Source: Christensenellaceae bacterium (GTDB lineage Bacteria > Bacillota > Clostridia > Christensenellales > UBA1750). From it: a stretch of 64,000 bases of DNA. A program made the position numbers and the translations under genes. Below are positions 1,181 to 60,367 of this stretch, one piece after another; the first letter of the stretch is position 1; each line of letters opens with the position of its first letter. The DNA lies in the NCBI GenBank assembly GCA_031280685.1, contig JAITGM010000010.1:1-64000 (forward strand), in the 5' to 3' direction. The notes under the pieces were generated by a model. That model was not told where the DNA came from. It ran no database searches and saw only the letters and a program-made list of their open reading frames with translations.

Positions 1181-2158
1181 CTATCAAGCGTTCAAGCTAA
1201 GGATGTTAAAAATAAGCAGATCATTATTGTGGACACCGGAATATCAACGACTGGTGAACTAAATTTTTTAGATATGGACTTTATTTATGGGAAGCCAGAA
1301 ATAAAGGATATTATTGCCCAACTCAAGAGCTATGAACGACTTGGCATTTTGCCGGATTTAACCGGAATAAAGATTACGTTCATCGGGACAACTGATGGAT
1401 TGGCCGAAGTAGCAGAACCGCAAAAAACACTCACGACCGACAAGCGGTTCATAAAGAATTTATGGGATGGTATTGTTAGAGCGTGTGGCTCGACCGACGT
1501 CAATTTTGAGGCCGCCGCTGGTTGGGACACTCCAAATAAGTACACCGAAGATGCGGATTCCAAATTCAAATATGTATCCGTCATCAACTTCACACATGAA
1601 AGAGTTATCCAAATTCCCGAAATACCCGGTTATGATCCTAATAATCCTGATGGCCAGCCCGATTCACCGAACCCGCCAAATGTGGAAGTAAAGTTTCCCA
1701 GCGAAACCGTTGGGTTCAAACCAGACAGAGCCGATTATTTGAATGAGGCCAATGCGCAAAAACTACTTAGGCCATATGCTGATGAACTTAAGAAATTCTT
1801 TCAAACCTATCCAAACGAAAAAATATGGATAGTGGGAACCACCGCCGCTGTCACAAAAGGTTCGACAGGCGGGATTGATTTGAGCTTGCGAAGGGCGGAA
1901 ACCGTAAAAAATACACTTGTAAGTTTTGGGATTCCCGAAGACAAGTTGCTAACGATTGGCTTGGGTTCAAAATTCCCTTGGTGGGTTGACGAATTCACAA
2001 GCGGGAACTTTGACACAAATGTTGCACAGGCGAACCGTGCAGTTTGGCTTTTAACTGCTCATGCAGATACCGACAAGTTTAACAAACTAAAAGCGGCGGC
2101 GACCAATTCAGAGCTATTGCCGGAAGTTGTGGAAAGGTTTAACTCGTTATACCATTGA
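1178..2158 (+). CDS. OmpA-like domain protein, 5'-truncated
   Basis: The coding sequence reads open from the junction at about 1178. Bases 1064-1177 of the same frame are only antisense to the polymerase, so the true N-terminus is lost. The visible N-terminal part (QIIIVDTGISTTGELNFLDMDF, interrupted here by description: a strand-D-x-G pattern) resembles a von Willebrand-like or surface-associated domain. After a Pro/Asn/Asp-rich linker the C-terminal 130 residues have the OmpA-like peptidoglycan-binding pattern (VGFKPDRADYL, WIVGTTAAV, LSLRRAETVKNTLVSFGIP, NRAVWLL). It probably pairs with the small membrane protein that follows 28 bp downstream. Base composition is visibly more A/T-rich than both flanks, so it came from elsewhere. 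Confidence 0.7.
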   Translation, partial: ALSSVQAKDVKNKQIIIVDTGISTTGELNFLDMDFIYGKPEIKDIIAQLKSYERLGILPDLTGIKITFIGTTDGLAEVAEPQKTLTTDKRFIKNLWDGIVRACGSTDVNFEAAAGWDTPNKYTEDADSKFKYVSVINFTHERVIQIPEIPGYDPNNPDGQPDSPNPPNVEVKFPSETVGFKPDRADYLNEANAQKLLRPYADELKKFFQTYPNEKIWIVGTTAAVTKGSTGGIDLSLRRAETVKNTLVSFGIPEDKLLTIGLGSKFPWWVDEFTSGNFDTNVAQANRAVWLLTAHADTDKFNKLKAAATNSELLPEVVERFNSLYH

Positions 2159-2186
2159 TTCTAATCAATAAACCGAAAGGTAGGCG

Positions 2187-2414
2187 ATGATGATGCTTGA
2201 ATTTCTAAATGGTCTCGGTGGAGCCATTGCCGCTTTTTTGGCCACTGGTACTGGATTGGGTATTGCTTTCAAAGGGTTTTTGGATTGGAAATATGATCCT
2301 GACTCCGCGAAAAAGAAAAAAGGGAAAGGTCTGATGATTGGCGGGTTAGCGGCTTTTGCCCTAACGATCATCTTCGTTATTATTGTTGTGGCGTTATGGA
2401 ATACCATAAGATGA
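2187..2414 (+). CDS. Small two-TM membrane protein
   Basis: A 75-residue protein with a hydrophobic N-terminal helix (about residues 6-30, rich in Gly/Ala), a charged middle segment (DWKYDPDSAKKKKGKG) and a second strong transmembrane helix (residues 50-70). The layout resembles small conjugation- or secretion-associated membrane proteins of integrative elements, but I do not recognise the family. A GAAAGG ribosome-binding sequence precedes three successive ATG codons (2187, 2190, 2193); either of the last two has better spacing. Its stop codon lies exactly where the decayed prophage begins on the opposite strand. Composition matches the OmpA-like gene upstream, so the two form one imported block. 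Confidence 0.6.
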   Translation: MMMLEFLNGLGGAIAAFLATGTGLGIAFKGFLDWKYDPDSAKKKKGKGLMIGGLAAFALTIIFVIIVVALWNTIR

Positions 2415-5400
2415 TGCAGATCATTATACACCTCAACTTGGAACAAGCCTAAGGCCCTATGCAGAACGCTATTGCTTGAATAAATCGTTGGCATTGCACC
2501 CTTTGACCTGTCCACCATAGCTTTCCCTGTCCAGGCATCCGCTGCCGCCCGCGCATCTGCATCGCTCATCCCTCGGCTGATATTGCCATAGTACCGCGCA
2601 CGAGCCAGAGCTTCTAAACCAAAATTATCCATAATGGCCATCGGAACAAAGCCTGCATCCCTCAATGCTTCCAACCGGCTTCGGCGAAGCCTCTCCGCTC
2701 CCCTGCGAGCAGTGAGGAAGTCGCTCTTATCTACAAATCCATCCGAGTCGTTTGCGTTACGTATAGTATCGGCCATCCCACGGATGAGGTTCACTGGCCC
2801 GACCTCGGCGCCATTCTCAACAAGAGGAATGAGGTTGGAAATCGCGGAGCGCACATTCATCCACATAACATTGGTGGCGTAGCGACCAACAAGATTATTG
2901 ATCCAGCGCGTCGTTTTGCGGCTGGTTCCCTTTTCGGTATCCCTGCCAAACATGGATTGCTTCCCGGCCAGCCCATTCGCATAGTCCGTTAGCCAGATGG
3001 CAAAGCCCGCAAGGTGCGAAGGCGTATTATCTTTTATAGCTAATACCGCCTCATTCGCATCCGACTTTTCCTCATAAGTTGCACGGGGATCATCCCATAT
3101 ATTTTTTATCACACGGGCGGTATTCTCGCTCGAATACTTTTCCCGCAAGGACGTATCCAGCGCACGCCAAAATCGAACGTCATCAGAATGATAGATGATG
3201 TCAAGAGCGGTATGAACGTAGCGCTCAAAGCCCTTTACCGCGTCATACGTGGTTTTTGTGCCGTGCCGTTGCTGTGCGTTGGCAAAGTACCGCGAAGCTG
3301 GCCTAAAGTTCTCGCTCATGCCAGCAACAGAGGTTGGGATTTCGGCGATCGGGTTCCCCTCAAATCCAAGCGCGGTGGATAGCGCAGAAAGAAGCCCATC
3401 GTTGCCATCCTCGGTGAAGTGCGGAAAGTAGCCGCGCCGATATGGGATCGGGTCTTTGCCGATGGAAACCAGCGTTTCGTTCAGCGCCTGAAACAGCGCA
3501 TCATAGTTTTCACGGAAGTGCTCAATTGCGCCGTCGATCTTTCCCATGTTCAGGTTCGGATGATCCGATAAATGCGCATTAATCGCGGCTGCGTTCGCCT
3601 GGTAGGCCGCCTCATCCTCCGCAGTGATTGCGCGGCGAACCGTGCCGTTGTTTTCAAGCATCACGCCGCGCTCAAGCGCCTCCTCATAGCGCGCCATATT
3701 GTCGCGGGTTTCCTCTATAAACTGCACTGCTTCCGATTCTGCCTCGCTTAAATTTAGCGCACGTATTCCGTAACCAAGGGCCTTATATGCCCGTTCAATT
3801 TCTGCGCTATTATGGCGCACAAGATCGTAACGAGCCATCAATGCATCACGAGCGGCGCCCGGCGGAACCGTAGCCTCAATTACGGCGCCGGGTGAGTTAA
3901 TTGCATTCACATAGGCCCAGCGTCTACCATTCCACCCATCCGATGTTTGAGTGATTTCATCGGCAACAGAGCGATATGCGGTGACCACCGCGCGCTTATG
4001 GTCTAAAACCTCGTTTTCAAGCGGCGCCAGCCTTGCTTTCGCTTCGTGTAGCTCCATCTTGGCGTTGAACCCGTCCGTGATTCTGGCCATGTCAACACCC
4101 ATCGCTTGAACAGCGCGTAGATTTAAGGTTCCATCAAGCAAGCCATCAATGAGTTTGTTTTCCTGCTCAGTTAAGCCCGCGCGCTGTGCGTACGCGCTCC
4201 ATTGGCTTTGGGCCGCATCACGAGTAGCGCGAAGCGCGGAGAGCGCCTGGGCCACTTCAATAATGTTCTGCGCCGCTTGCCTACCTTCTGGGTTGGCCAA
4301 GAGCGGGGCGCGATCAAGCACTGCAAATCGCTCCGGGCGCTGGGAAGCGTTTTCGGCCTGCCCATTTTCCCCGGATGTATCATTGACAGCCGGTTCGGCA
4401 TATGATAAGCTGTCGGTATCGACAGCAGGCAACGCAGCCGATCCTGTTCTCGCCTCGGTAGGCGAAACATCCGGAGATATCGTTGCCTGTTTGTTGTTTG
4501 TTTCAAAAAGGGAGCTCACCTTCCCATCGGGCGTGAGGAGCCTATGGGCATAGTACTGATTATCGCTGGTTTTATGCACAATAACACCAACCATTGCGTC
4601 TTGCCCATTTACGGTTATCGGCGCGGCTAACAAGCGAGTTTCATATCCTCGGCCTTTGTGGTTCGGATTATGGAAAATCTCTGCGCCATCCCGGATCACA
4701 TCGGCAACCGCACCAAAAGCCGCCGCATCACCGATGTTTTTAATATGCGCCGCCCCGTTTGCAATACCTGATTGATCCATACGCACATCACCTAAGCCAT
4801 TGCGATTCATATGGAAGCCCACGCTTTCGAATGCTCGGCGAGCAAACTCCATGATCGAAGTATTAGTTGACAGGTCTTGTGGGTTCACCGTCACGCTTGC
4901 GATGGGGTTTAGTTGGCTAAGCTCGGGCGATACAGCCTTCAGGGCGTTGGGGATTCGAATGGATCCATTGGGGCTGATTTGCTCACGAACACGTTGTTTG
5001 GCCCGGTCGATCAGCGCCGCGGCTTCAGGGGAAGCGATATCAACCCCTTGCGGGGTTTGGGGTTGCACTTGCGGGATTTGCTCGTTTTGCACCTGCTGAG
5101 CGGCCATTCGCGCTTCGTTGGCGGTGCGCTGCTCCGGCGTGGTAAATGGATTGATAACGTCCTGCCGTTGCGCAGTACTTTGTTGGTTTTGTTCAGTCAA
5201 GGCTTGATTCGCTGCCGTAAACGGGTTGATGATAGGTTGCTGCTGCGCATCAAAGGCCCTGCGGGCCGCCTGCGAGGTGAAAGGGTTAATGGCTTGGCTT
5301 CCGCTCATGGTCGCGGTGGACTGCGGAACACTGCCACCGCCAAATAGGCCGGAAACCAGCATACCCATGCCACCAGCCGCGAGGTATTCATCCAGCGTGC

Positions 5401-6667
5401 CAAGGTCAAGATTCTTAAACCCGTTGATCGTTGCCCAGTCAACAAATTTGTTCCCAAACTGCTCAGCGACCTCTTCCAGACCTTCGCCCGCGATATTAAT
5501 GCCCTTCTGCACGGCCCAGTTCACCACGGGATTAGCAAAGAGCTTGTCTGCGATGACCTGCTGCAGCTTATCGAGCGAAGAGTATTGCGTTAATCCGGGG
5601 ATGCCCTTCGCCAAACCTTCTACTATATACGAAAGCGCACCAGAAAGAGTGCCACGCGCCGAAGCTTGCTCGCGCGTAGCGCCGCTTGCATAGGCCTCGT
5701 TGGCCGAACTGCCGCTAGCTCCAAGGGCCATCGCGGCGCGGCCAAGATTTGCAAGTCCCATTTCAGCACCCATGCCGCCAATCATCGCTGAGGGCATCAT
5801 AGCGCCTATCGCACCCACGCCCCTGGTGAGAGTTCCTACAACGGGCCCGCGCTCATCGCCGCGCCGCTCAATATCTTGAATATAGGCTGTTTCTGTCGGC
5901 TGATACTCCAACAGCTTGTCAATGGGAGCATTCAACGTAGTGGCAATGTTCCGCGCCATTTCATTGCCCGATACCCGAGCGGCCGCGTCTGCCAAGATGC
6001 GCGGCGCCACAGTTGACCCCATATAAGCATATCGCAGGCCTTCGTTCACCATCATTTGACCGGCATTTGGTGCGTTTGGAGCCGCGTTTTCGAGAATTGG
6101 AAACAGGTTTTTATTCCATTCGGGCCGACTTTCCTCATACCCCGGTTGCCCAGGCATCAATGGCGTGCCCGTCAGCCCGCGCCGAAGCTCTCGCTGAATG
6201 GCTACGGGCAATGTAACGCCATTTTTTACATCCGCGTAAACATTCATAGGACTTTGAACAATCGCAGGCTTAGGCAAGCCTGCAAGCGCAGCCAGTGAGT
6301 TTTTGACGGCGGTTGGGCCTGCTTTCGTTGCCGGAACGGCTTGTCGTGTGGTGCCGACCTGGGGCACCATGGGCGGCAGAGTGACCTTCGGCGTAGCGGC
6401 CTTGGGCACCATGGGCGGCAAAACTACCTTTGGAATAACGGGCTTCGGAGCCGTCAAAGACTTCAAAGACGATTGCCCCTGCACGGTCGGCGCGGGAAGC
6501 TTTGGGGCCTGCTGGGCCTTTTGCGCAACCGCCTTGTACTGCTGCGGCACGATGGGCGGCAGCTCAACCTTTTTAGGCGCCACAACGGGAGCGGCTTTAG
6601 GCCGCTCCACGATATAGGGCTCCTGTTTCTTCTTTTGAGTAGATGCTGAAGCTTTATTTAGCGCCAT
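2413..6667 (-). pseudogene. Truncated polyvalent virion protein of a decayed prophage
   Basis: About 1417 codons of a giant phage protein, cut at its 3' end at about 2413. The reading frame continues past this point only by chance, antisense to the small membrane gene. The N-terminus has repeated Pro-rich motifs (VVLPPMVPKAATPKVTLPP), then Gly/Ala-rich hydrophobic stretches and the motif EEVAEQFGNKFVDW followed by a GGMGMLVSGLFGGG glycine zipper (about residues 405-445), as in the intact homologue at 38305. Residues about 640-710 (IKNIGDAAAFGAVADVIRDG, TRLLAAPITVNGQDAMVG) look like a small domain of the polyvalent-protein world (LPD3- or nuclease-like; assignment tentative). The rest is helical. 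Such proteins are packaged and injected into the host. It is not functional as it stands. Confidence 0.75.
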
Positions 6668-10162: not shown

Positions 10163-11230
10163 CTATTTCAAGCTTTTTTCTGCTATCGTGTCCGTTTTCG
10201 TGTCCATTTCTCTTTGAGCCACACTCATAAGCGCCGCAAAATGCTCGTTCCCAATACGCGCGACTTCTTTAGCCTTAGCCTCCATGGTGGCACGATAAAC
10301 GCGCTTCATCGTGTGCTCAGAAGCCCAACCACCACGCTCCATTATGTACGCATCGGGCACCCCTAGGGCGTGTAAGATGGAAACCTGATAATGCCGAAGG
10401 TCATGAAATCGTAAGCCTTCTAGGCCAGCTTGTTTCACAAGTTTTCCGAATCTCCGAGTAATCGCATCCGGCATTAGGTCAACGATTCGGCCATTGGACG
10501 GTATTAGTTGCCGGGCGATATTCTCGTCCATCTCAACCACCCGCGCACTAGCCTTTGCTTTCGGTTGTTTGATCACCCAATGCCGATCCTTGTTCTGCAC
10601 CATCGCCTTGCTCACGCGCACGAATCCGTCTTTTGCATCTTCCTCTGTAAGCGCTGCGATTTCGCTGCGTCTAAGCGACCCGAAAGCAGCTAACAAGATC
10701 GCTTTGAGCAACTCGCTCCCATGGGCGCTTGCTATCAACTTGACGATGTCTGCATCGCTAGGAACGTATAGATTCGGCTCAATGCGCTGTGGAAGCGTAG
10801 TATTCAAGCGCATATCCGGCCTGAACATACCCAGTACCGCCGATAGTAACCCGTGTATGTTTCGAACGCTCTTAGGCGAGCGCCCAGCTGCCTCTATATT
10901 GATGGCTACTTGGATTTTTTCTCTCGTAAGGTCATCAAGCAATACTTCCATGAGCGATGGAAGCATCCTTCTACGCATGCTCTCGTATTCGCGCACCGTA
11001 GCCGGAGAGAGCACGCTACTCTTGCTCGCAATGTAGCGATCCGTAGCTACGCCTAAGGTTATCTTTGTTGCGGCACGCGTTGACTTCTTTGCAGCAAACT
11101 CTGCAGCTAGAAACTCCGCTTCTCTGCGATCATCTGCCGTGAAAGACCGTCGAACGGAATTTCCACTTGCATCTACGCCCGCAATGCGCACCCGCCACGC
11201 TCCGCTCGGCAGCTTATGCGCCTTAGCCAA
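10163..11230 (-). CDS. int: Tyrosine-family integrase of prophage C
   Basis: 355 residues: an N-terminal arm-binding domain (KLPSGAWRVRIAGVDASGN), a SAM-like core-binding domain (about residues 55-150) and the catalytic domain. The catalytic residues are visible: Arg in FGSLRRSEIAAL, the HDLRH box, the Trp/His position in GGWASEHTMK and the Tyr nucleophile in RVYRATM. It catalyses recombination between attP and the tRNA-Pro 3' end; attL lies 22 bp beyond its stop codon. It is the last gene of the leftward lysogeny operon and its first codons overlap the end of the ImmA-like gene. Its 3' end contains the repeat CGTGTCC-N4-TTCGTGTCC also found near attR. Confidence 0.95.
   Translation of the reverse strand: MAKAHKLPSGAWRVRIAGVDASGNSVRRSFTADDRREAEFLAAEFAAKKSTRAATKITLGVATDRYIASKSSVLSPATVREYESMRRRMLPSLMEVLLDDLTREKIQVAINIEAAGRSPKSVRNIHGLLSAVLGMFRPDMRLNTTLPQRIEPNLYVPSDADIVKLIASAHGSELLKAILLAAFGSLRRSEIAALTEEDAKDGFVRVSKAMVQNKDRHWVIKQPKAKASARVVEMDENIARQLIPSNGRIVDLMPDAITRRFGKLVKQAGLEGLRFHDLRHYQVSILHALGVPDAYIMERGGWASEHTMKRVYRATMEAKAKEVARIGNEHFAALMSVAQREMDTKTDTIAEKSLK
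10187..10209. repeat. Integrase arm-type repeat candidate, left copy
   Basis: Two CGTGTCC units spaced by RTTTT. The 23-bp block differs by one base from 51929-51951 near attR and has the same orientation. It lies 46 bp inside attL, within the 3' end of the integrase gene. Confidence 0.5.
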
Positions 11231-11645
11231 TCCCCCACACGCCCTTTCTCCTATAGTATTTGATAGCGCACTCCACGAGGTCTTCGGTCACCCCAAGTTC
11301 TTCGGCGGCAATTTGCGGATTTCCGTTACATACGTTGAGCACGCTGGCTAATCGCTTTGCTGGAAGCAAACTCCCAATCGTGAGCGCTATGGCACGCTGT
11401 TCTTGCTTGACGATGGCAAGCGCACTCATCGCACGCATGTCACCAGTCCCTGTAGACAAATGGGCGATTTCGTGAGCAAGAATGCACTTGCGCGCGGCGG
11501 CTGATAGGCCCTTGCGCACGATTATGGTTTTGCGGCGTCCATGGCAGACAACGAGGCCGTCCGTTCCATCTGGCAGGGCATCGTCCTCGACGACCTTGGC
11601 GCCCGCATCGTGTGCGGATTGCTGTAATGCTTCATAGATTGTCAT
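11223..11645 (-). CDS. ImmA/IrrE-like metallopeptidase
   Basis: 140 residues from ATG at 11645, eight bases after AGGAGGG. A longer frame exists but lacks a ribosome-binding site. The zinc-peptidase motif HEIAH (in CILAHEIAHLSTG) sits near residue 72, with helical flanks typical of COG2856. Known relatives (ImmA of ICEBs1, and IrrE) cleave or inactivate a repressor to induce the element. Its position downstream of the CI-like repressor and before the integrase fits control of induction. The C-terminal half (LASVLNVCNGNPQIAAEELGVTEDLVECAIKYYRR) also matches the family. The partner is presumably the repressor at 14707-15105. Confidence 0.9.
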   Translation of the reverse strand: MTIYEALQQSAHDAGAKVVEDDALPDGTDGLVVCHGRRKTIIVRKGLSAAARKCILAHEIAHLSTGTGDMRAMSALAIVKQEQRAIALTIGSLLPAKRLASVLNVCNGNPQIAAEELGVTEDLVECAIKYYRRKGVWGIG

Positions 11646-11770
11646 AAGATGATCCCTCCTGTTGTTTCCGTTTTGTTTCAACAGGTTACTATCTCCAGCG
11701 ACAAATAGCAACAGTACGGCGCGAAATGAATGGTAAAAATGTGTAAGGGCGCGTTTTGTGGCGTGGACGC

Positions 11771-13918
11771 TTAACGCTCATATGCCCGCAAAAACTCATC
11801 TTCATACTCTCTGCAGTCGCGCCGCGTGATGATGTTTTCTTTAAGCGCCCATTGCATGGATTCGTAGAAAATATGCTTGATAGTTTGACCCAAGGGGCGC
11901 TCTTCGCCGCGATAGCTTTTGTGCAAGCCGCTATTGACCGCATTCTGTAGGCAGACGTGAATGAGTTTGAAGGATCGCTCTTCGGTTGTTGAGCCATCAT
12001 CGGCGTCAAAGGCATCACTGTCGTCTAACGAGCGCATCATGTCATCGCGGTAGGATGGGAGATCGGCGGGCAGGGTGGATTCGAAGGATTCAAGGAGGGA
12101 ATAGATGGAAGCGAATAGGTCGTCGGTCTTATCGACTAATGACTTCCCTTGTCGTACGGCTCGAAGTTCTTTTGATGCACTCCCATTCTTGACCTCTGGA
12201 TGCAATGTTAGGAAGGCCTCCTCTTGTGATACGCCCGATTTCACCATTGCTGCGAAGCGCTCATCACGCAATTCGCTCACGGCGTCAAAACTCGGATATT
12301 TCTTTTTTATCTCGCTCGCTTCCTCCATAAGCGCATCTATGCGTGTCTTTCGTGAAGTAGCCAACTCTTCTTCCATCTGCTTTATCTGGACAAGCTGTTC
12401 AACGGTCACTTCGCGATTTATGGCCTCTTCTTCTAATGATGTGCTCACAACTGGAACTGTTGAATGATCTAATAAGCTGCCATCATTATTGAAAGGTTTT
12501 TCGCTTGTATTTGCATTGTGCTGCCTATCAAACAGAAATGCTTTAAGTCCGTTTTCAAATGAGCGCCCGACGCTTGGCAACGCTTCCAGTTGTCTCGATA
12601 TGTATTTAATTTCTTGTTCAAAGTCTTTTGATGATATTTGCGCATTGTCTAAAAGTTCCTTTTCGTTCACCGTAAAAATGGCGTAAAACATCCACACAAC
12701 TTCTTGTTTGTTCAGAAATTTTATGTCTTTCACGATGTTTTCAATCATTATTTTTCTTATGCACATCCTTGCCATTCTCTCAAGCACTTGTTCATAGTGT
12801 GATTCGAACATATCACTGTATTCCGTTTGCAGTTCACTAAATGCAACTCGAATGGTTTCCGACTTGCTTGCAATATTTTGTATCTTCGCACTTAATACAT
12901 CGCTACTCGCAGGCAAACTATTGAGCCTCTGTTCATATTGGTTTAATACAACTCTCATTTTCCGCACCAATGCTTTAAACACTTTTGTATTTCTAGCTTG
13001 GTTCGATTCCGTCTGCCTGTCTGTGCACCTGCTTCTTCCTGTAACAGACGTCTTATTTTCGCCGTTAATCTTTCGAGCCAGCCATCTAAAGAACCACACT
13101 AAAGCGGCCGTAACCCCGCCTACAATTGCGCCAGACAAAGCGGTCAATATCCAATCAGAAAACATTTCCATTACTACAACTTCCTCGGCTTCTGTCCGCG
13201 TCATCCCGACTGATGCTGTTTGGAGTCCTGGTTTTGACTTCACATCAAAAACAATGCTCTTCATCGCTTTCTCAAACAAATAAACAGTATAGCTATTAAA
13301 CGATGTATTGCCATAGGTACGCCAGCTCACCGTTATCGGTCTTCCATTTACCACGGTTGTATACATCTGAGCCCCTGACCTCAAAGTATTAGCTTCAACG
13401 CTTACAGATACAAGAGCATATTTTTGCCCATTGTACTCACACATCTCATTGTTCAAAATTCGCATTCCTTTTTGTTTTGCGCCAGCCACCAATCCATCCA
13501 GAAGTGCCTGCGTGTCGGCTTCGTCCAGATCGTCCATGCTCCACAAAGCATCCAATGTAGTTTCCGTATCGCACATAATAACAAGCTCACTCATCGCTTC
13601 TCCCGGTTCAATGGGAACGATAGCATCTAGCCAGGAATTGTTTTTCGGCATATCGATACTCTGAAACTCGCTAATGTTTATCCCGACTTTTTCCGAAAGT
13701 GCAGTTGAATTAATAACCTTATCGCGCGTAATCACATACCAATCCAGCGGTATATCCAGGCTCATATCCAGCTCATCTATCGTCCAGGTTTTGGCCGTAA
13801 TTGCGAACGCGGGCACGGCTACGCTGAGCAGCATTACAGAAAGAAGCAAGATCGCAAGCCCGGCTTTATTTCTTGTTCCGTTTACGCTCCTCAGCCCCTC
13901 TCTCTTCGTTTTCACCAT
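11771..13918 (-). CDS. Lysogeny-operon membrane protein with a capsid-scaffold-like cytoplasmic segment
   Basis: 715 residues, no family recognised overall. Residues 18-39 form a signal peptide or first TM (LAILLLSVMLLSVAVPAFA), residues 40-252 a probable outside domain, residues about 255-282 a TM helix followed by positive charges, and 283-715 a largely helical cytoplasmic part. Residues 505-573 align with residues 139-215 of the phage scaffold protein (gene 30359-31261): TVEQL-x2-I-x2-M-x2-ELA-x2-R, then RI-x-A-x-M-x-EA, FD-x3-EL-x3-RF-x-A-x-V-x2-G-x-SQ-x2-A-x4-H. About 31 of 69 residues are identical by hand alignment, with one 8-residue gap. The gene overlaps the preceding membrane-protein gene by 53 bp and is more A/T-rich than the phage average. 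It should be expressed from the repressor transcript in the lysogen. Inferred role: superinfection interference. Confidence 0.75.
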   Translation of the reverse strand: MVKTKREGLRSVNGTRNKAGLAILLLSVMLLSVAVPAFAITAKTWTIDELDMSLDIPLDWYVITRDKVINSTALSEKVGINISEFQSIDMPKNNSWLDAIVPIEPGEAMSELVIMCDTETTLDALWSMDDLDEADTQALLDGLVAGAKQKGMRILNNEMCEYNGQKYALVSVSVEANTLRSGAQMYTTVVNGRPITVSWRTYGNTSFNSYTVYLFEKAMKSIVFDVKSKPGLQTASVGMTRTEAEEVVVMEMFSDWILTALSGAIVGGVTAALVWFFRWLARKINGENKTSVTGRSRCTDRQTESNQARNTKVFKALVRKMRVVLNQYEQRLNSLPASSDVLSAKIQNIASKSETIRVAFSELQTEYSDMFESHYEQVLERMARMCIRKIMIENIVKDIKFLNKQEVVWMFYAIFTVNEKELLDNAQISSKDFEQEIKYISRQLEALPSVGRSFENGLKAFLFDRQHNANTSEKPFNNDGSLLDHSTVPVVSTSLEEEAINREVTVEQLVQIKQMEEELATSRKTRIDALMEEASEIKKKYPSFDAVSELRDERFAAMVKSGVSQEEAFLTLHPEVKNGSASKELRAVRQGKSLVDKTDDLFASIYSLLESFESTLPADLPSYRDDMMRSLDDSDAFDADDGSTTEERSFKLIHVCLQNAVNSGLHKSYRGEERPLGQTIKHIFYESMQWALKENIITRRDCREYEDEFLRAYER

Positions 13919-14726
13919 ACAAAATTCGGCTGTAAATATCCAATGCCTCTTTATCTCCTCGCCTTATCCTGCGCTTCAGCCTAATAACCTCAGCCCTCCG
14001 CTTTGCTGCAGAAACGAGTAGCATATCAGTCTTTATTTTTTCTAGCTCTCCTTCGGCCCGTATTCGATTCTCCGTCGTTCCTCTAGCTTCGATTGCGTCC
14101 ATTGCGTCTAGGTCTATTTTTAGGTTAATCAAAACGCCCTCTTCTCGCAACTTGGTTGCGTTTTCGTGCTGTGCTTGCTCGTAATCATTTACTAATCTTT
14201 CTATAACCCATTCTTCTAAAGGCGTGTATGGCCAAGGCTTATCTTGCTTGGTTTGTTGATGTACTTTGTTTTTATTTCCTAGGGCGATATAGCTTCTAAC
14301 AAACCGAATCACCCATGGGATTTGGGCCAACACAACTCCAAATGGGAAAACTTCAAAGACACCTCTTATTGACGTTTCCCACAACCATTCCTTTGTAGCT
14401 GTTTCATATGGTGGCCAGCTCTTTGTAGATTCAACGCGAATAAAATAAACTAAACACGAAACGACAAGCAGTGCAACTGTAAATATGACCGAAGAAAGCA
14501 GTGCGGAAAGCGCGGCCTTTTTGAAATATGGGTAGGATTTAGAGCAATTCACTTCCGCGCTTTCTACTCTAATATATGATGTCGACAAACACGCAACAAT
14601 TAACGCGGCTAACAGATTAAACCACCACGCCGAATGAACCAGAAAGTAGAGCAACTCGTTAACCGCGAATCCCAGCAAGATCGGCGCTACATAGCGCAAT
14701 AAGAACTTACTTGCGTTTGCGTTCAC
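13866..14726 (-). CDS. Four-TM membrane protein in the lysogeny operon
   Basis: 286 residues with four predicted transmembrane helices (about 11-30, 32-50, 71-96, 120-147) and a charged, helical cytoplasmic tail (150-286, rich in Glu, Lys and Arg; ends GAEERKRNKK). I do not recognise the family. The start overlaps the last 20 bases of the repressor gene, and the stop lies inside the next membrane-protein gene, so the three are translationally coupled. A/T-richer than the phage structural genes. Genes in this position, expressed with the repressor during lysogeny, often encode superinfection exclusion or defence functions. That role is inferred from position only. Confidence 0.7.
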   Translation of the reverse strand: MNANASKFLLRYVAPILLGFAVNELLYFLVHSAWWFNLLAALIVACLSTSYIRVESAEVNCSKSYPYFKKAALSALLSSVIFTVALLVVSCLVYFIRVESTKSWPPYETATKEWLWETSIRGVFEVFPFGVVLAQIPWVIRFVRSYIALGNKNKVHQQTKQDKPWPYTPLEEWVIERLVNDYEQAQHENATKLREEGVLINLKIDLDAMDAIEARGTTENRIRAEGELEKIKTDMLLVSAAKRRAEVIRLKRRIRRGDKEALDIYSRILYGENEERGAEERKRNKK

Positions 14727-15105
14727 GCTCTTCGTCCTCCTTCATCTTCTGCAACTGGTACTCCACGTAGTCGCTGATCGCTTTCTGTCGCTCGGGCGGT
14801 AGCTGGTTGTAGGTTAGGCCGCCTAGGTCAGCGGCGACAATGATGGTTTCGTCGTCATCGTCGCGGGCACCGGATGCAGCCATTGTGCGAACGTCCGTTC
14901 GACCCATCAGGTAATCCGTGGAAACTCCAAAGTAATCAGCAAGCCTTCCTAGATTATCAAGGTTAGGCGCTCCCTTGCCGTTCCTCCAGTTGGATATCAA
15001 CCCATTTGCAATCCCCGTTGCCTTTGTAAGTTTGTAGCTACTCACATCTAGTTCTGACATGAGAGCATTTAGTCGCTCTGTAAATTCCAAAAATTTCATC
15101 TCCAT
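14707..15105 (-). CDS. CI-like XRE-family repressor of prophage C
   Basis: 132 residues. Residues about 7-65 form a classical helix-turn-helix (LNALMSELDVSSYKLTKATGIANGLISNWRNG) followed by the frequent dimer-linker motif DYFGVSTDYLMGR. The C-terminal half is acidic and has no LexA-type autoprotease domain, consistent with removal by the neighbouring ImmA-like peptidase instead of RecA-stimulated self-cleavage. The gene is divergent from the early genes; the interval 15106-15204 holds a promoter and inverted repeats that it presumably binds. It heads the operon repressor, two membrane proteins, ImmA, integrase. Confidence 0.9.
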   Translation of the reverse strand: MEMKFLEFTERLNALMSELDVSSYKLTKATGIANGLISNWRNGKGAPNLDNLGRLADYFGVSTDYLMGRTDVRTMAASGARDDDDETIIVAADLGGLTYNQLPPERQKAISDYVEYQLQKMKEDEERERKRK

Positions 15106-26220: not shown

Positions 26221-26673
26221 ATGGCTACCCCTAGGAAGCACAAAGACCCCAAAGTGGTAAAAAAGCTGATAGACGACTACTTTTCGTACTGCGAGGGCAC
26301 GCTTCTGCTCAGCAAAGGCGAGCCCGTGCTCTACAAGTGCTTGCCCGTATACAGACGCGCGCCAGTGCCGCCCACGGTCGCGGGGCTGGTGTATGCTTTG
26401 GGCTTCGCGGATGAGCAAAGTGTGCGCGAGTATGAGATCCGAGGCGCTGGAGCCGATGCGACGCCAGAAGAGCAAGCTATCGGCGTGCTTATCACGCGCG
26501 CGAAGTGGGCGATAAGGCAGTACGTCGAGCAAAGGCTCTTTGACAAGGACGGCGCGCGCGGCGCTGTCTGGTGGCTTGCGGTGCATGCTGGCCAGCGAGA
26601 AAAGGCCGAAGCGGACGCTCCGCAGACGATCGTCATAAAGATGGCGAGCGAAGATGACGGGCTTGCAGACTAA
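26221..26673 (+). CDS. terS: Terminase small subunit (P22 gp3-like)
   Basis: 150 residues. The N-terminus (KVVKKLIDDYFSYCEGT) and the block PPTVAGLVYALGFADEQSVREYE, together with IGVLITRAKWAIRQYVEQRLFDK, match the DNA-packaging protein gp3 type of small terminase. It recognises the packaging site and recruits the large subunit. It is the first late gene, behind late promoter 1, with AGAGGTGATCAT before the ATG, and its end overlaps the TerL start by 20 bp. Confidence 0.85.
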   Translation: MATPRKHKDPKVVKKLIDDYFSYCEGTLLLSKGEPVLYKCLPVYRRAPVPPTVAGLVYALGFADEQSVREYEIRGAGADATPEEQAIGVLITRAKWAIRQYVEQRLFDKDGARGAVWWLAVHAGQREKAEADAPQTIVIKMASEDDGLAD

Positions 26674-28081
26674 GGTCGGTTTTGAGCTTCGCATCGACGC
26701 GCCGAGCGACAAGCAGCGCGCATTTTTCCTCGCTCGCCAGAAGTATGTTGGCTATGGCGGTGCGCGCGGTGGCGGCAAGTCGTGGGCGATCCGCACGAAG
26801 GCCGTGCTCCTGTGCCTGCGATACCCTGGCATAAAGGTCATGATCGTGCGCCGCACATACCCAGAGCTTACAGCGAATCACATTCTGCCGCTTCGTGAGC
26901 TTTTGGGCGCGCATATAGCCCGGTATCACGAGCAGCGCAAGGAGTACCGCTTTTCCAGCGGCAGCACGATCACTTTCAGATACTGCGCGAGCGAAAAAGA
27001 CATGGGCGCTTTTCAGGGTCTTGAGATAGACGCGCTCTTTCTTGATGAAGCCACGCAGATGGACGAGCGCGTCTTTCAGATGCTCACTGCCTGCGTGCGC
27101 GGGACAAATGCCTTCCCCAAGCGATTTTACCTTACGTGCAACCCAGGCGGCCGCGGGCACGCCTGGTTCAAGCGGCTTTTCATCGACCGCAGCTTCAAAG
27201 AGAGCGAAAATCCCGACGAGTACACCTTCATCCAAGCCTTGCCACAGGACAATGCCGCGCTCATGCGCGCGCAGCCCGACTATATCGACCAGCTTAAGTC
27301 CCTGCCACACTCGCTGCGTGAAGCATGGCTCTATGGAAAGTGGGATGTCTTCAGCGGTCAGGTCTTCGCGGAGTGGCGCGACGTGCCCGAAGAGTATGCC
27401 ACAGGCGTGGGCACTCACGTCATAGACCCCATCGACATCCCGGCATGGTGGCCCATCTATCGCGGCTTTGACTTCGGATACTCGAAGCCCTTCGCATGCT
27501 ACTGGGCGTCGGTGTCGCCAGATGAGCGGATATATGTGATCCGCGAGCTTTATGGCATCCGTGGCGATGAAGCAGACGCCGGCGCGCAGATGGAGCCGCG
27601 AGAGATCGCGGAGAGGATACGGCGCATAGAGCACGAGAGCTTCCATGGCCGTGAGATCATAGGCATAGCCGATCCGGCGATCTTCGCCCACGACCGAGGA
27701 GAGAGCATCGCGCAAATTATGGCTGGCCCATACCCAGCGGGCGTCATCTTCAGCAAAGGAGACCATCGTCGGCTTCCTGGCCTGATGCAGGTGCATCGAC
27801 GCCTGGCTTTCGGCGCTGATGGTCGCCCGATGCTCCAGGTCTTTAGCACGTGCAAGCACCTGATCCGCACGCTTCCGGCGCTGGTCTATGACGAAAGGGA
27901 TGTCGAAGACGTAGACACATCACAGGAGGATCACGCCTATGATGCCCTTCGCTATATCTTGATGGCCCGGCCCATGGGCGCGATAGACCCCGCAAGCAAG
28001 CGCGCGCCAAAGCCAAAGCTTTTCGACCCGCTCGACATTGCTACAGAGGAGGATTTTTATGCAAGGTATGCTATCAGATAA
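26654..28081 (+). CDS. terL: Terminase large subunit
   Basis: 475 residues. The ATPase half has Walker A YGGARGGGKSWAIRTKA (about residues 33-49), Walker B IDALFLDEATQMD (about 122-134) and a coupling motif YLTCNPGG. The RNase H-like nuclease half begins with the catalytic Asp in YRGFDFGYSKP (about 271) and has IGIADPAIF and DVDTSQEDHAYDALRYI with the further acidic residues. It translocates DNA into procapsids and cuts concatemers. It overlaps TerS at its start and the portal gene at its end. Confidence 0.95.
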   Translation: MTGLQTKVGFELRIDAPSDKQRAFFLARQKYVGYGGARGGGKSWAIRTKAVLLCLRYPGIKVMIVRRTYPELTANHILPLRELLGAHIARYHEQRKEYRFSSGSTITFRYCASEKDMGAFQGLEIDALFLDEATQMDERVFQMLTACVRGTNAFPKRFYLTCNPGGRGHAWFKRLFIDRSFKESENPDEYTFIQALPQDNAALMRAQPDYIDQLKSLPHSLREAWLYGKWDVFSGQVFAEWRDVPEEYATGVGTHVIDPIDIPAWWPIYRGFDFGYSKPFACYWASVSPDERIYVIRELYGIRGDEADAGAQMEPREIAERIRRIEHESFHGREIIGIADPAIFAHDRGESIAQIMAGPYPAGVIFSKGDHRRLPGLMQVHRRLAFGADGRPMLQVFSTCKHLIRTLPALVYDERDVEDVDTSQEDHAYDALRYILMARPMGAIDPASKRAPKPKLFDPLDIATEEDFYARYAIR

Positions 28082-29960
28082 GCAAATTCCCGCTACGCTT
28101 CCAGGCGTAGCGGGCGAGGGAGCGGCTTCATCCTCGGCTCGGGCCATCATCGGCGAGGTCGAGGTCGCTGCCGCCGAAAGCAAGCGGATGCGCTTCCGCT
28201 CGGGCAAAAGCGTCATAGACACTCGCGTGCTCACGAATGAAAATTTTTATAGGCGGCGCTATTGGGATAAGGCCTTCATGGACGCCAAGCAAAAGGGCAA
28301 GCGCAGTACGCGCATCGACACGCGGAGCGCGTGGCTCTTGAACTCGCTGGCAAATAAACACGCGGACGCGATGGATCAGTCGCCTGAGCCCAATGTTTTG
28401 CCTCGTGCAGCTGACGATGACGAGGCCGCAAAGGTGCTGTCTGGCGTGCTACCCGTCGTGCTGGAGCAGGCCGGCTTTGAAAGCGTCTACCGTGAGCTTT
28501 GGTGGGATAAGCTCAAGCACGGCTGCTCCATAGCCGCCGTCACATGGGACTCGCGCAAGCTCAATGGGTTGGGGGACGTGGGCCTTCGCCGCATCGACCC
28601 GCTCACGATCTGCTGGGAGCCGGGCGTGCGCGATATACAGGATTCTAGCGACATCTTCATCGAAGTCGTGATGCGTGCCGACGAAGCCAAGGCGCTCTAT
28701 CCAGAGCACGCAGATAGGCTGCGCGCGGGCGCCGTGAAGCTCTCTCCAAGCTATGTGCAGGACGAAGCGCAGGACATGCAAGACAAAATCGTTGTTGTGG
28801 ACTGGTACTACAAGCGCATCATAGGCGGCAGGAGCATCGTCCACTACGCGCGCTATGCTTGCGGCGTGCCGCTATACGCGTCCGAAAATGACGAGCGCTA
28901 TACGCAGAGCGGATACTACGCAGACGGCGACTTCCCATTCGTCTTCGATGTGCTCTTTCCTATCGCCGACTCACCCTTCGGCTTTGGCTATATCGATGTC
29001 ATGCAGGATATGCAGGAGTACATAGACAAGCTGGACGCCGTGATGCTCGAGAATGCGGTCCTTTCTAGCAAAAAGCGCTTTCTGATCAGCAAGTCTGCTG
29101 GGATACGCAAGGAGGAGATTGCCGACTTTGACCTGGACTTTATCGAGGCGGCATCGCTAGACGCCGCCAGCTTTCAGGAGCTGTCGCACTCGCCCTTGCC
29201 CGGCTCCTCGATGCAGATTTTGCAGGCGAAGATCGAGGAGCTTAAGGAGACCTCAGGCAATCGCGACTTCTCGCAAGGGGGTACGTCTTCTGGTGTCACG
29301 GCGGCGTCGGCCATCGCGGCGCTTCAGGAGGCCGGAAGCAAGCTCTCGCGTGACATGATTGCGACCAGCTACAGCGCTTTCGGGAAGATATGCTACATGG
29401 TAATCGAGCGGATCAGGCAGTTCTATCAGGCGGGGCGTACATTCAGGATCATAGGGCAAGAGCATGAGCAGGATTTTGTCGAGCTAGACCCTGCACAGAT
29501 CGGCCTGCAGCCACATGGAAGCATCGCTGGCGTAGACTTAGGCGAGCGCATGCCGATCTTCGATGTGCGCGTGACAGCCAGCCGGAAGACCGCATTCTCG
29601 AGAATCTCTCAAAACGAGCTGGCTGTGCAGCTCTATCAGCTCGGCTTTTTCGCGCCTCAGATGGTCGATCAATCGCTTGGCGCGCTGGAGCTTATGGACT
29701 TCGACGGCAAAAGAAACGTCGAGGACATCATCCGCAAAAATGGCGGCCTGATGCAGCAGATCGAGCAGATGCAGATGGCGATGCAGCAGATGGCTATGGT
29801 CATAGATGCCCAAAATGGGACTTCGCTCGCGGAAGGCATGGCGCAGGAGCAAGCGGTCCAGCAGGGCGCGCCGAAGCCATCGGGCGGCAGGCAACCGCTC
29901 CAAATACCGCTAGACCAAAAGGCTAGGGGCCGCGCGCAGAAGCCGGGGGTGCCGAAGTGA
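28059..29960 (+). CDS. Portal protein
   Basis: 633 residues from ATG 28059, six bases after GAGGAGG; the earlier ATG at 28038 has no ribosome-binding site. Features typical of podovirus-like portals: WLLNSLANKHADAMDQ, WDKLKHGCSIAAVTWD, DPLTICWEPG, and the long C-terminal helical barrel rich in Met and Gln (QQIEQMQMAMQQMAMV). Twelve copies form the DNA channel in the head. The middle loop TSGNRDFSQGGTSSGVTAASAI is characteristic of this portal group. It follows TerL and precedes the protease and scaffold genes, the usual head-assembly order. Confidence 0.85.
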   Translation: MQGMLSDKQIPATLPGVAGEGAASSSARAIIGEVEVAAAESKRMRFRSGKSVIDTRVLTNENFYRRRYWDKAFMDAKQKGKRSTRIDTRSAWLLNSLANKHADAMDQSPEPNVLPRAADDDEAAKVLSGVLPVVLEQAGFESVYRELWWDKLKHGCSIAAVTWDSRKLNGLGDVGLRRIDPLTICWEPGVRDIQDSSDIFIEVVMRADEAKALYPEHADRLRAGAVKLSPSYVQDEAQDMQDKIVVVDWYYKRIIGGRSIVHYARYACGVPLYASENDERYTQSGYYADGDFPFVFDVLFPIADSPFGFGYIDVMQDMQEYIDKLDAVMLENAVLSSKKRFLISKSAGIRKEEIADFDLDFIEAASLDAASFQELSHSPLPGSSMQILQAKIEELKETSGNRDFSQGGTSSGVTAASAIAALQEAGSKLSRDMIATSYSAFGKICYMVIERIRQFYQAGRTFRIIGQEHEQDFVELDPAQIGLQPHGSIAGVDLGERMPIFDVRVTASRKTAFSRISQNELAVQLYQLGFFAPQMVDQSLGALELMDFDGKRNVEDIIRKNGGLMQQIEQMQMAMQQMAMVIDAQNGTSLAEGMAQEQAVQQGAPKPSGGRQPLQIPLDQKARGRAQKPGVPK

Positions 29961-30217
29961 TCAAAGTGGAGCGCCGTGGCGGTAGGATCAGCTTCGAAGG
30001 GCATGCCGACTATGCTCCATACGGCTACGACGTGGTCTGCGCAGCGGTGTCTGGCGCGTCCGCTGCGCTTGCCTGCGTAGCAGATGAGGACTGCACCGAC
30101 GAGAGCGGAGCGGTGCAGTGGGTAGATCTAGGCGAAGCAAGGGCCACTGCCGCGATGTGCTTCTTCGATAAGATTGCGGGTGCCTTCCCGAGGGTCATAC
30201 AAACCAGGTCGAGATAA
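29957..30217 (+). CDS. prp: Prp-family cysteine protease (prohead processing)
   Basis: 86 residues, GTG start overlapping the portal stop. The signature GHADYAPYGYDVVCAAVSG contains the catalytic His16 and Cys28 of the Prp family (DUF464). Host Prp removes the N-terminal extension of ribosomal protein L27 in Firmicutes, cutting after FFA, and also processes the scaffold and capsid of staphylococcal phage 80alpha. Here the gene is phage-borne and sits directly upstream of the scaffold, whose N-terminus carries a matching LAPFFA-PDGGG site. It is therefore probably the prohead protease. At 86 residues it is slightly shorter than host Prp. Confidence 0.85.
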   Translation: MIKVERRGGRISFEGHADYAPYGYDVVCAAVSGASAALACVADEDCTDESGAVQWVDLGEARATAAMCFFDKIAGAFPRVIQTRSR

Positions 30218-30223
30218 GCGGCA

Positions 30224-30267
30224 TTTTTTCACGCACACCTGAAAGTACCATGGCTTTTATGTATGAT
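30224..30267 (+). promoter_or_regulatory. Late promoter 2 (scaffold and capsid)
   Basis: TTTTTTCACGC element, CTGAAA (30239-30244), exact 17-bp spacer, TATGAT (30262-30267). It would give extra scaffold and capsid transcript independent of late promoter 1. Confidence 0.65.
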
Positions 30268-30358
30268 AGTCCTGACACATCGGAAAGACGATGCATTTCA
30301 GGCAAAAGCCCCGTACTACGGGAGATTAGACGCGCTGGAAAGACAGCGGAGGTGCACG

Positions 30359-31261
30359 ATGTTTGTTTTTTCTACCCTAGCCCCTTTCTTCGCCCCCGAT
30401 GGAGGCGGCGCTGGCTCTGGCGCAGCTGGCGCGGCTGGTGCAGCTGGCGCTGCTGGTTCTGCTGGTTCTGCTGGTGCATCTGGTGCTGATGGTGCTGATG
30501 GCGCTGCTGGCGCGGATGGCCAAGCGCAGACGCCGACCTTCGACGACATCCTGAAAGATCCCAATCATCGCAAGGAGTATGACGCCCGTGTGAGCCGCAT
30601 GGTTACAGATCGCCTAAAGGGCACAAAAGGCCAGCTTGACAAAGCCAATGGGGTGCTCGCCTACATAGCATCGCGCTACGAAGGCATCGATCCGAGCGAC
30701 TACGACGGCATACGCAAGGCGCTTGAAGGGGACGACGATCTTCTGTCAACCGAGGCTGAAAGGCGCGGCATGACCGTGGAGCAGCTTCGAGAAATTCGAG
30801 CGATGAAAGCGGAGCTGGCGCAGGCTCGCATGCAGCAATCGCAGATTGTCCAGCAGCAGCGCATCGAAGCGTCCATGGCAGAAGCAGCAGCTCTGAAAGC
30901 GGAGTTTTCAGATTTCGATCCCATAGCCGAGCTACAGAATCCCAGATTCCGCGCTCTTGTGCAGGGTGGAGCTTCCCAGCGCGACGCGTACATCGCGACA
31001 CATATTGATGAGATCGCGCCCGCACTGATGGGCAAGGCTGCACGGGAAGCGCAAAGCGCGACAGTGCAAAATATAGCGGCAGGCACACGGCCCATTGAGG
31101 GATCACGCGCCAGCGCGACGCCCGCGACAGCAGCAGCCGATTATAGCGGATGGAAATCCAGGGACTTCGAAGCAGTTCGTATGGCGATAGAAAGAGGCAC
31201 GCCCCCACAACAGGCGGTGGATGAAGTATTTGCGCGCAAGCGCAGGTCATCCACCAGTTAG
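30359..31261 (+). CDS. Capsid scaffold protein
   Basis: 300 residues from ATG 30359 behind GCGGAGGTG. The N-terminus FVFSTLAPFFAPDGGG holds a probable Prp cleavage site after FFA; a Gly/Ala/Ser-rich tail (14-58, AGAAGAAGAAGSAGSAG-like) follows. Residues 139-215 are the helical core (TVEQLREIRAMKAELAQAR, FSDFDPIAELQNPRFRALV, GGASQRDAYIATH) typical of phage scaffolds. The C-terminal 60 residues include WKSRDFEAVRMAIERG. It directs assembly of the N4-gp56-like capsid protein that follows and is normally removed before DNA packaging. The core is duplicated in the lysogeny membrane protein at 11771-13918. Confidence 0.85.
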   Translation: MFVFSTLAPFFAPDGGGAGSGAAGAAGAAGAAGSAGSAGASGADGADGAAGADGQAQTPTFDDILKDPNHRKEYDARVSRMVTDRLKGTKGQLDKANGVLAYIASRYEGIDPSDYDGIRKALEGDDDLLSTEAERRGMTVEQLREIRAMKAELAQARMQQSQIVQQQRIEASMAEAAALKAEFSDFDPIAELQNPRFRALVQGGASQRDAYIATHIDEIAPALMGKAAREAQSATVQNIAAGTRPIEGSRASATPATAAADYSGWKSRDFEAVRMAIERGTPPQQAVDEVFARKRRSSTS

Positions 31262-31271
31262 GAGAGAACAC

Positions 31272-32330
31272 ATGATCAGACCCAATTCGATCCTTTCGGT
31301 TATGCAAACCGCAACCGCGCTCGCCATGATCCAGGCGCGCACGAATCTCAACACGAACGTTTCGACTGCGGCGACTGCCGGGAACGATCTTTCAGCCGAC
31401 ATGAAAGTCTACTATGACATGCAGCTCCTTAGAGATGCGGAGCCGCATCTCGTACATCGACAGTTCGGCAAGAAAGCGACCATCCCTCAAGGCACAGGCA
31501 AGACCATAGAGTTTAGGCGCTTCGCTGATCTGCCCAGAAATCTCACACCGCTCACAGAAGGCGTGACGCCCAACGGAATGAGCCTGGACGTTGCCGCGAT
31601 TACGGCGATGGTCAAGCAGTACGGTGGATATGTGGCTACATCCGATATCCTGGTTATGACTGCAATTGATAACATCATGTCGGAGGCCGTGCAGCTGCTC
31701 GGCAGTAATGCTGGCATTGTGCTCGATACGCTCTGCAGAAACGTTCTCCTAACGGGTACAAATGTTATGTACGCCAATGATAGCGCAACTGGAAGCGCCA
31801 TTTCCGCGCGTGCCGATTTGCTGCAAACAGCGAATCTCACTGTCCGCGAGGTCTCTCGCGCCGTGACCATCCTGCGCCAGCAGAACGCTCCCACACTCGA
31901 TGGGAGCTATGTGGCCATTGCTCATCCCAATGTCATTCACGAGCTGATGGCAAATTCGGAAGATGGCTGGATGGACATCACAAAGTATACTCGCTTGGAT
32001 GATGCTTTGACTGGCGAGGTCGGGAAGTGCATGGGCGTTCGCTTTGTCGAGAGCACGCAGGCAAAGGTGTTTGGAGGCGCGTCCTCTGAAGATAGCGCGG
32101 TCTACGGCACGCTGTTCATCGGACAGGGCGCCTACGGCGTCATTGACCTTGAGGGCGGCGGTTTGCAGACCATCGCGAAGGCGCGTGGCTCCGCAGGCAC
32201 AAGCGACCCGCTCAACCAGAGGGCCACGGTTGGTTGGAAAGCCGTCGAAGCTACCAAGATTCTCGTGCCGCAGTATCTGCTGCGCGTCGAGAGCTGCGTA
32301 CGCGACTTTGGCGATCAGCCCGAAAACTAA
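31272..32330 (+). CDS. Major capsid protein, N4-gp56 family
   Basis: 352 residues from ATG 31272 (AGGAGAGAACAC upstream). Family landmarks: NLNTNVSTAATAGNDLSADM, MKVYYDMQLLRDAEPHLVH, QFGKKATIPQGTGKTIEFRR, LTEGVTPNGMSLDV, YGGYVATSDILVMTAIDNIM, and YVAIAHPNVIHEL. This HK97-fold group forms icosahedral heads of N4-like and many short-tailed phages. It has no obvious FFA-type site, so Prp processing probably concerns the scaffold only. Confidence 0.9.
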   Translation: MIRPNSILSVMQTATALAMIQARTNLNTNVSTAATAGNDLSADMKVYYDMQLLRDAEPHLVHRQFGKKATIPQGTGKTIEFRRFADLPRNLTPLTEGVTPNGMSLDVAAITAMVKQYGGYVATSDILVMTAIDNIMSEAVQLLGSNAGIVLDTLCRNVLLTGTNVMYANDSATGSAISARADLLQTANLTVREVSRAVTILRQQNAPTLDGSYVAIAHPNVIHELMANSEDGWMDITKYTRLDDALTGEVGKCMGVRFVESTQAKVFGGASSEDSAVYGTLFIGQGAYGVIDLEGGGLQTIAKARGSAGTSDPLNQRATVGWKAVEATKILVPQYLLRVESCVRDFGDQPEN

Positions 32331-58258: not shown

Positions 58259-59344
58259 CTATTCTTCGGAACCCTCGCCCTCCGGCGGCTTCGGCTCCAT
58301 GAGCTCGTCGAGCCGCTGAACCGTGTCGTCGTGCTTGTTAGGGTACAGATGACCATACGTACGCAAGGTGGTCTCCACGTCCTCGTGCCCCAGACGCTCC
58401 GAGATAAGCAGGATGGGAACGCCCATATCAACGAGGAGCGCGGCGTGGGAGTGCCGGAGGTCGTGGATGCGGATGCGCTCGACCCCGGAGGCGGCGCACC
58501 CTTTATCCATCTCGTGGTGGTAGTAGGACTTCGTGAACGGGAACAGGCGGTCGCCGGGCCGATAGTCATAAAGGCAAGGGAGGTACTCCTTCACGCTGTC
58601 GGCGACCTTCGCCGGGAGGGGAACCGTCCGCTTGCTTTTTTTTGTCTTCGGCTCCGTGACTACGTCCTCCCCCTCAATGCGCTGATACGATTTCGTGATG
58701 GAGACGGTGCCCTTTGAGAAATTGAAGTCCTCGGCGGTGAGCGCGAGGAGTTCCCCGATGCGCATACCCGTCCAGTACAGCAACTCAAAGCCGACCCGCG
58801 CCGGCCGCCGCTCCACGCAAGCGATGAACTCCGAGAACTGGTCGAGCGTCCAGAACTTCATCGTGTCGGCGTTTTTACTGCCCATGCTCCCTGCGGCGTG
58901 GCAGGGGTTAGCCGGGAGGTGGAAATACTTCACGGCGTAGTTCAGAACCGCCACAAGCTGATTATTTAGGGATTTGAGGTAGGTCGGAGAGTAGTCCTGC
59001 GCCAGAAGCCCCGCCTGCCATTTGCGGACGTGGGAGGGCGTGATTTTGTTTATAGGCAGGTCGCGGAAGAACGGCATGATGTGCGTCTCCATCACCCAGT
59101 CCTTGTTCTGCCGGGTGGTGGCTTTGAGCCGCGCCTCCATATCCTCCTTGTAGACATCCACCAGCGAGGCGAACGTCATGTCGCAGGACAACTGCTGCTT
59201 CGCAAGGAACTCGCGCTCGAAGTCCTGCGCGTCCTTTTTCCGCTCAAAGCCCCGCTTGTGCTTCCGGCGACGGGTGCCCGTCCAGTCCGTATAGTAGAAC
59301 AGGACATACCAAGTGCCCCGGTCTTTGTCTTTATAAACAGGCAT
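58259..59344 (-). CDS. int: Tyrosine-family integrase of element E
   Basis: 361 residues from ATG 59344 (GGGAGGTGG upstream). N-terminal AP2-like/arm-binding domain (YKDKDRGTWYVLFYYTDWTG), core-binding domain (TFASLVDVYKEDMEARLKAT) and catalytic domain with Arg in YWTGMRIGELLAL, Lys in TKKSKRTVPLP, HDLRHSHAALL, GHEDVETTLRTY with the nucleophilic Tyr in YGHLYP. Typical of Tn916- and phage-type integrases of Clostridia. It is the last gene of the leftward operon and its start overlaps the SAP-nuclease gene by 14 bp. Confidence 0.95.
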   Translation of the reverse strand: MPVYKDKDRGTWYVLFYYTDWTGTRRRKHKRGFERKKDAQDFEREFLAKQQLSCDMTFASLVDVYKEDMEARLKATTRQNKDWVMETHIMPFFRDLPINKITPSHVRKWQAGLLAQDYSPTYLKSLNNQLVAVLNYAVKYFHLPANPCHAAGSMGSKNADTMKFWTLDQFSEFIACVERRPARVGFELLYWTGMRIGELLALTAEDFNFSKGTVSITKSYQRIEGEDVVTEPKTKKSKRTVPLPAKVADSVKEYLPCLYDYRPGDRLFPFTKSYYHHEMDKGCAASGVERIRIHDLRHSHAALLVDMGVPILLISERLGHEDVETTLRTYGHLYPNKHDDTVQRLDELMEPKPPEGEGSEE

Positions 59345-60342: not shown

Positions 60343-60367
60343 TTTGACCTCCCGAAGTCCACATAGA

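Follow-up and report, generated by a model that had tools for sequence, protein, structure and literature searches.

What is a piece of phage head scaffold doing in a membrane protein encoded in the repressor operon of a prophage? The question is raised by a 64-kb window (here, the whole stretch of DNA that was analysed) from a gut-type Christensenellales bacterium, which carries a prophage. Christensenella sp. UBA941 and a Christensenellaceae MAG were used as relatives from the same order. On the minus strand, an HTH repressor is followed by a 286-aa multi-TM protein, a 715-aa protein, an ImmA/IrrE-like protease and an integrase (Table 1), and these ORFs overlap their neighbours save for a short gap 5' of the protease. 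The plus strand carries the head genes (26654–32330), namely those for terminase, P22-like portal, scaffold and major capsid. The first-pass annotation gave the 715-aa ORF the same limits as we found, and described the gene as coupled to the repressor; its place in a lysogeny operon stood, but the 286-aa gene lies between the two and overlaps both. A promoter scan of the operon gave a result no better than chance, and we infer solely from the overlapping repressor-operon position that the 715-aa protein would be made in the lysogen.

Table 1. Features of the prophage window and of the second core-bearing operon (genome G057, JAAXZP010000403.1)
Feature	Position	Strand	Basis or remark
Tyrosine integrase, operon end	10163..11230	-	Phage_integrase 4.1e-12
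ImmA/IrrE-like metalloprotease	11223..11711	-	Peptidase_M78 1.9e-7, PHROG 87
715-aa membrane protein	11771..13918	-	ORF; TMs from hydropathy; relatives of N-terminal domain
C-terminal helical pair, SHOCT-like by eye	11774..11851	-	suggested by sequence
Scaffold core, residues 495–573	12200..12436	-	BLASTP to resident scaffold, PHROG 13908, AF2
Transmembrane helix, residues 256–274	13097..13153	-	hydropathy; then basic RWLARK, cytoplasmic side
N-terminal extracytoplasmic domain	13139..13876	-	profile search, 30/347 genomes matched; tails variable
Signal-like N-terminal hydrophobic helix, residues 22–40	13799..13855	-	hydropathy
286-aa multi-TM protein, overlapping repressor and 715-aa genes	13866..14726	-	ORF overlaps, hydrophobic stretches
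HTH repressor, 132 aa, operon head	14707..15105	-	HTH_3 2.2e-8, PHROG 8
P22-like portal protein	28038..29960	+	P22_portal 2.4e-33
Resident scaffold, source family of core	30359..31261	+	PHROG 13908 6e-39; between portal and major capsid
Major capsid protein, ORF limits	31221..32330	+	PHROG 1357 4.1e-76
G057 S24-type repressor (G057:C346, locus L024; L074)	9–599
G057 246-aa protein with scaffold core	600–1340
G057 integrase	1642–2730		then bacterial genes

For the scaffold, the start at 30359 that had been used before was retained over the longest-ORF start at 30263, as its Met is common to 24 of 25 aligned scaffolds; the true start of the major capsid protein is probably further in than its ORF limit (31272 in the first-pass annotation). 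Elsewhere in the window, the minus strand at 58259–60772 encodes a further integrase (364 aa) along with a further HTH protein (134 aa) that shares 35% identity with the prophage repressor, which points to an additional integrated element on the downstream side of the prophage. A 1500-aa protein (2165–6667, minus strand) with a weak LPD3 polyvalent-protein domain is ~27% identical over 242 residues to a 2911-aa protein (38305–47040), a similarity hinting at a second phage remnant on the left.

The 715-aa protein had been singled out because residues 505–573 could be aligned by hand to the scaffold with about 31 identities and a single 8-residue gap, a count that proved right to the residue. 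Pairwise BLASTP extended the match to residues 495–573 (35/87 identities, one 8-residue gap, E = 4e-16), and the Smith–Waterman score of 159 was 21 SD above 2000 shuffles (34.7 ± 5.9, maximum 67). PHROG 13908, the family of the resident scaffold, independently matched residues 496–587 (7.7e-10). A profile made from scaffolds only scored the protein at 52.7 bits, cf. 14.0 for the best of 10000 block-shuffled controls, and only three other protein pairs within the window are significant. These measures confirm that the segment is truly homologous to the resident scaffold. A chance match between coiled coils was ruled out by the block-shuffled controls, the independent PHROG 13908 match and the tree; in our judgement, weak Pfam matches to FliD_N and YkyA look like coiled-coil noise of this kind. 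In AF2 models of the window scaffold and the 715-aa protein, the core consists of a short helix, a long helix and a small three-helix unit, with pLDDT mostly ~90 or above in both proteins (~89–97 over the core of the 715-aa protein), and it is thus confidently predicted to be a folded unit in the latter. In the 715-aa protein the long helix falls 8 residues short of its counterpart in the resident scaffold. The copy may have drifted, because it keeps 20 of 39 well-conserved scaffold positions, only about half, cf. a fraction of 0.64 in the window scaffold.

Unlike a soluble scaffold of the PHROG 13908 type, the 715-aa protein has two predicted hydrophobic helices, and its gene lies between repressor and integrase, not between portal and major capsid. 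No close homologue over its whole length was found in viral contigs, genomes or phages, searches for solved relatives by sequence or fold gave nothing significant, and no known defence protein in PADLOC-DB matched by profile at E ≤ 0.01. Among predicted viral structures, the second-best match carried the annotation Scaffolding protein, at probability 0.97 though with E = 0.074. The neighbouring 286-aa protein matched no family in the profile searches.

To establish where else the core occurs, core profiles were searched over ~1600 genomes and records plus IMG/VR, yielding ~126 distinct core-bearing reading frames. Two of them, L108 and L119 (Rad50-like and SMC proteins), were chance coiled-coil matches; beyond these, the only non-scaffolds were the 715-aa protein and a 246-aa membrane protein from a further Christensenellales prophage (genome G057). 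All others were scaffolds; wherever neighbouring genes could be scored, nearly all had a portal gene, a major capsid gene or both next to them. A hydropathy screen found TMs only in the 715-aa and G057 proteins, apart from the Rad50-like chance match. A second core was absent from 46 of 46 longer phage records, and the window was the only record with two; related scaffolds are present in the same bacterial order (genomes G009 and G016). A generic domain shared by many proteins was ruled out by this distribution, and as judged from these searches the core is scaffold-specific.

From its N-terminus, the 715-aa protein is composed of a signal-like helix, an extracytoplasmic domain, a TM, a cytoplasmic helical region, the scaffold core and the helical pair. 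The two hydrophobic helices bear out, as a prediction, the cytoplasmic placement of the segment made in the first-pass annotation. The N-terminal domain matched no Pfam family; together with the TM the domain forms a module common in Christensenellales, carrying tails that are SHOCT-like, zinc-ribbon-like or of other kinds. Pfam SHOCT did not match the 715-aa protein itself, and matched the relative of its N-terminal domain in G016 at E = 4.8e-5, under the curated cut-off. That relative, a 403-aa prophage protein also encoded between repressor and integrase, has the membrane platform without the scaffold core. Homologues lacking the segment had been named at the outset as evidence against the idea, and the platform supplies such homologues, which count in part against it. 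The core as a conserved partner of the N-terminal domain was ruled out by such relatives. Because platform relatives, including that in G016, exist without it, the core behaves as a separately acquired module, and the simplest history would be that a membrane platform gained a scaffold core.

The G057 protein provides a second case. Its ORF begins at the base after the stop of an S24-type repressor, with an integrase downstream. Residues 29–124 are scaffold core (PHROG 13908 1e-19), 42% identical to the G016 and G009 scaffolds, and are followed by KRK..RSKR, a TM (138–156) and a Gly/Asp/Tyr-rich tail predicted to lie outside. The anchor is thus on the C-terminal side of the core in this protein and on the N-terminal side in the 715-aa protein, and the two share nothing outside the core. 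In both, the predicted TMs put the core in the cytoplasm, the copy corresponds to one and the same part of the scaffold profile (157–249 and 142–254 of 319) and the N-terminal part of the scaffold is missing. No scaffold or major capsid of the head family that bears PHROG 13908 was found in the G057 genome. After a P22-like portal on another contig, which also bears bacterial genes (G057:C349), locus L259 (10125–10799) encodes a protein that resembles a different scaffold, probably unrelated to the PHROG 13908 type. By comparison of the two loci, a membrane-tethered scaffold core in a lysogeny operon is recurrent and not a single accident, and since the second case occurs in an otherwise unrelated protein at the same operon position, a role directed at phage is more likely than an accident.

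A tree built from 60 cores joined the window copy and the resident scaffold as sisters (98/86) and put the G057 copy elsewhere; a joint clade of both copies was not rejected by the AU test (p = 0.23). Judged from the protein architectures, two independent captures are likely. Recent duplication was ruled out for the window copy, as there is no DNA-level similarity between it and the scaffold; this, together with a core identity of only ~40%, dates the capture as old on sequence grounds.

The part that was copied bears on the probable target. Scaffolds of this type end in a conserved motif, LTxxDRxEIxRRVARGExIxF; its profile matched the true scaffold at 4.6e-14 and gave no match in the 715-aa protein and only noise in the G057 protein. 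Both copies comprise the middle of the scaffold, i.e. the long-helix/three-helix core. In 80alpha and SaPI1, a C-terminal helix and hook of the scaffold binds coat (PMC5644958), and by analogy the conserved motif is likely to be the coat-contact piece. Since it is missing from both copies, simple competition for coat is disfavoured, and the coat protein, which the first-pass annotation took as the target of the segment, is not supported in that role. Scaffold, portal and coat are all possible partners of the copied piece.

Of the explanations considered, the leading one, to which we give close to an even chance, is that the 715-aa protein is a membrane-anchored scaffold-core decoy, or poison, made by the lysogen against head assembly of superinfecting phages with related heads. 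The anchored core would be produced from the repressor–integrase operon and would engage a head-assembly partner of the incoming phage (the scaffold itself, portal or coat); this partner would be tied up in a dead-end complex at the membrane, and burst size would fall. At induction the decoy would go off with the repressor operon and the resident phage would build its own heads. The benefit would have to come from heteroimmune relatives, because the repressor already blocks homotypic superinfection. In favour of this reading, SPP1 procapsid precursors form at the cytoplasmic membrane (PMC13212656), prophage blockers of virion assembly are known (Tab; PMC10884400) and so is a scaffold mimic competing for coat (CpmB; PMC5644958). 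The decoy as first proposed thus keeps the homology, the predicted cytoplasmic placement and the lysogeny operon, gains the G057 case and loses coat binding; counting against it are that there are only two examples, that the platform is known without the core and that the C-terminal motif is missing in both.

The main rival, which we consider somewhat unlikely, is a sensor triggering abortive infection: the core would be bait for head proteins of an invading phage, the TM/extracytoplasmic part or the 286-aa protein would be the effector, and the cell would arrest or leak, in the manner of abortive systems of the Rex type or of those that sense capsids. Membrane anchoring fits this reading, as does a multi-TM gene between the repressor and the 715-aa gene, cf. 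cI-rexA-rexB. Profile searches, however, recognised no effector domain, and the G057 operon has no multi-TM partner, its protein having one TM and a short outside tail. Sensing of structural proteins does have precedents, e.g. Thoeris (PMC12578639). It is unlikely that the core was merely reused for helical oligomerisation or as a spacer, with no phage target; an all-helical unit with a long helix (AF2) on a platform with variable cytoplasmic tails would suit such use, but two otherwise unrelated proteins in matching operon positions use the same stretch, and outside these the core is confined to scaffolds rather than scattered among membrane proteins. A service to the resident phage is improbable, whether the protein would offer a membrane site for the capture or silencing of leaky head proteins in lysogens or would help to place procapsid assembly at the membrane after induction. 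The window copy is indeed closest to its own scaffold, and procapsids can form at the membrane, as in SPP1 (PMC13212656); the gene, however, belongs to the lysogeny operon on the strand opposite to the head genes, and the G057 genome lacks a detectable scaffold or major capsid of the PHROG 13908-type head family. Generalising the decoy reading, we tentatively propose a previously undescribed class of head-assembly decoy immunity, in which temperate phages would repeatedly weld their own or a competitor's scaffold core to unrelated membrane anchors in the repressor operon, so that a structural fragment would act as a dominant-negative inhibitor held where procapsids start.

Among the closest known systems is Rex of lambda (cI-rexA-rexB), in which exclusion genes, including one for a multi-TM protein, are co-transcribed with the repressor; the window operon has a multi-TM neighbour (the 286-aa protein) and that of G057 has none, and RexA is not known to have a scaffold part. 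Superinfection exclusion proteins of the SieA and Ltp type are, like the 715-aa protein, prophage-encoded membrane or surface proteins, but they act at DNA entry, not on head assembly, and are not known to contain a scaffold part. Our searches of the open-licence literature found no membrane-tethered scaffold core in a repressor operon. A scaffold mimic from a satellite is already known: SaPI1 CpmB is likewise encoded outside the phage head module, duplicates a portion of a scaffold and acts as a competitor in head assembly (PMC5644958). CpmB, however, is a small non-membrane protein sharing the C-terminal RIIK coat-binding hook (PMC5644958), whereas the 715-aa protein copies the middle core without the C-terminal motif and is encoded in a prophage lysogeny operon. 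Prophage assembly blockers are also known. Tab, the tail assembly blocker of prophage JBD26, is produced by the prophage and stops invaders from assembling virions (PMC10884400), as is proposed for the 715-aa protein, but its target is the tape measure protein, not the head, and the text of that paper, from which the word 'scaffold' is absent, reports no scaffold homology. Tai (tail assembly inhibition) proteins are a further instance of assembly interference by prophages and satellites, again acting on tails and not, as the proposed decoy would, on heads (PMC11364771). Against this background, the strongest new fact is the recurrence of the core in two differently built proteins. The idea supplies a simple search rule for more such systems, i.e. 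structural-protein fragments fused to TMs adjoining repressors, and, if the decoy reading is true, would help to reveal the binding partner of the poorly understood middle part of the scaffold. Lysogens would then have, copied from a piece of phage scaffold, a head-directed counterpart to the tail-directed blockers Tab and Tai.
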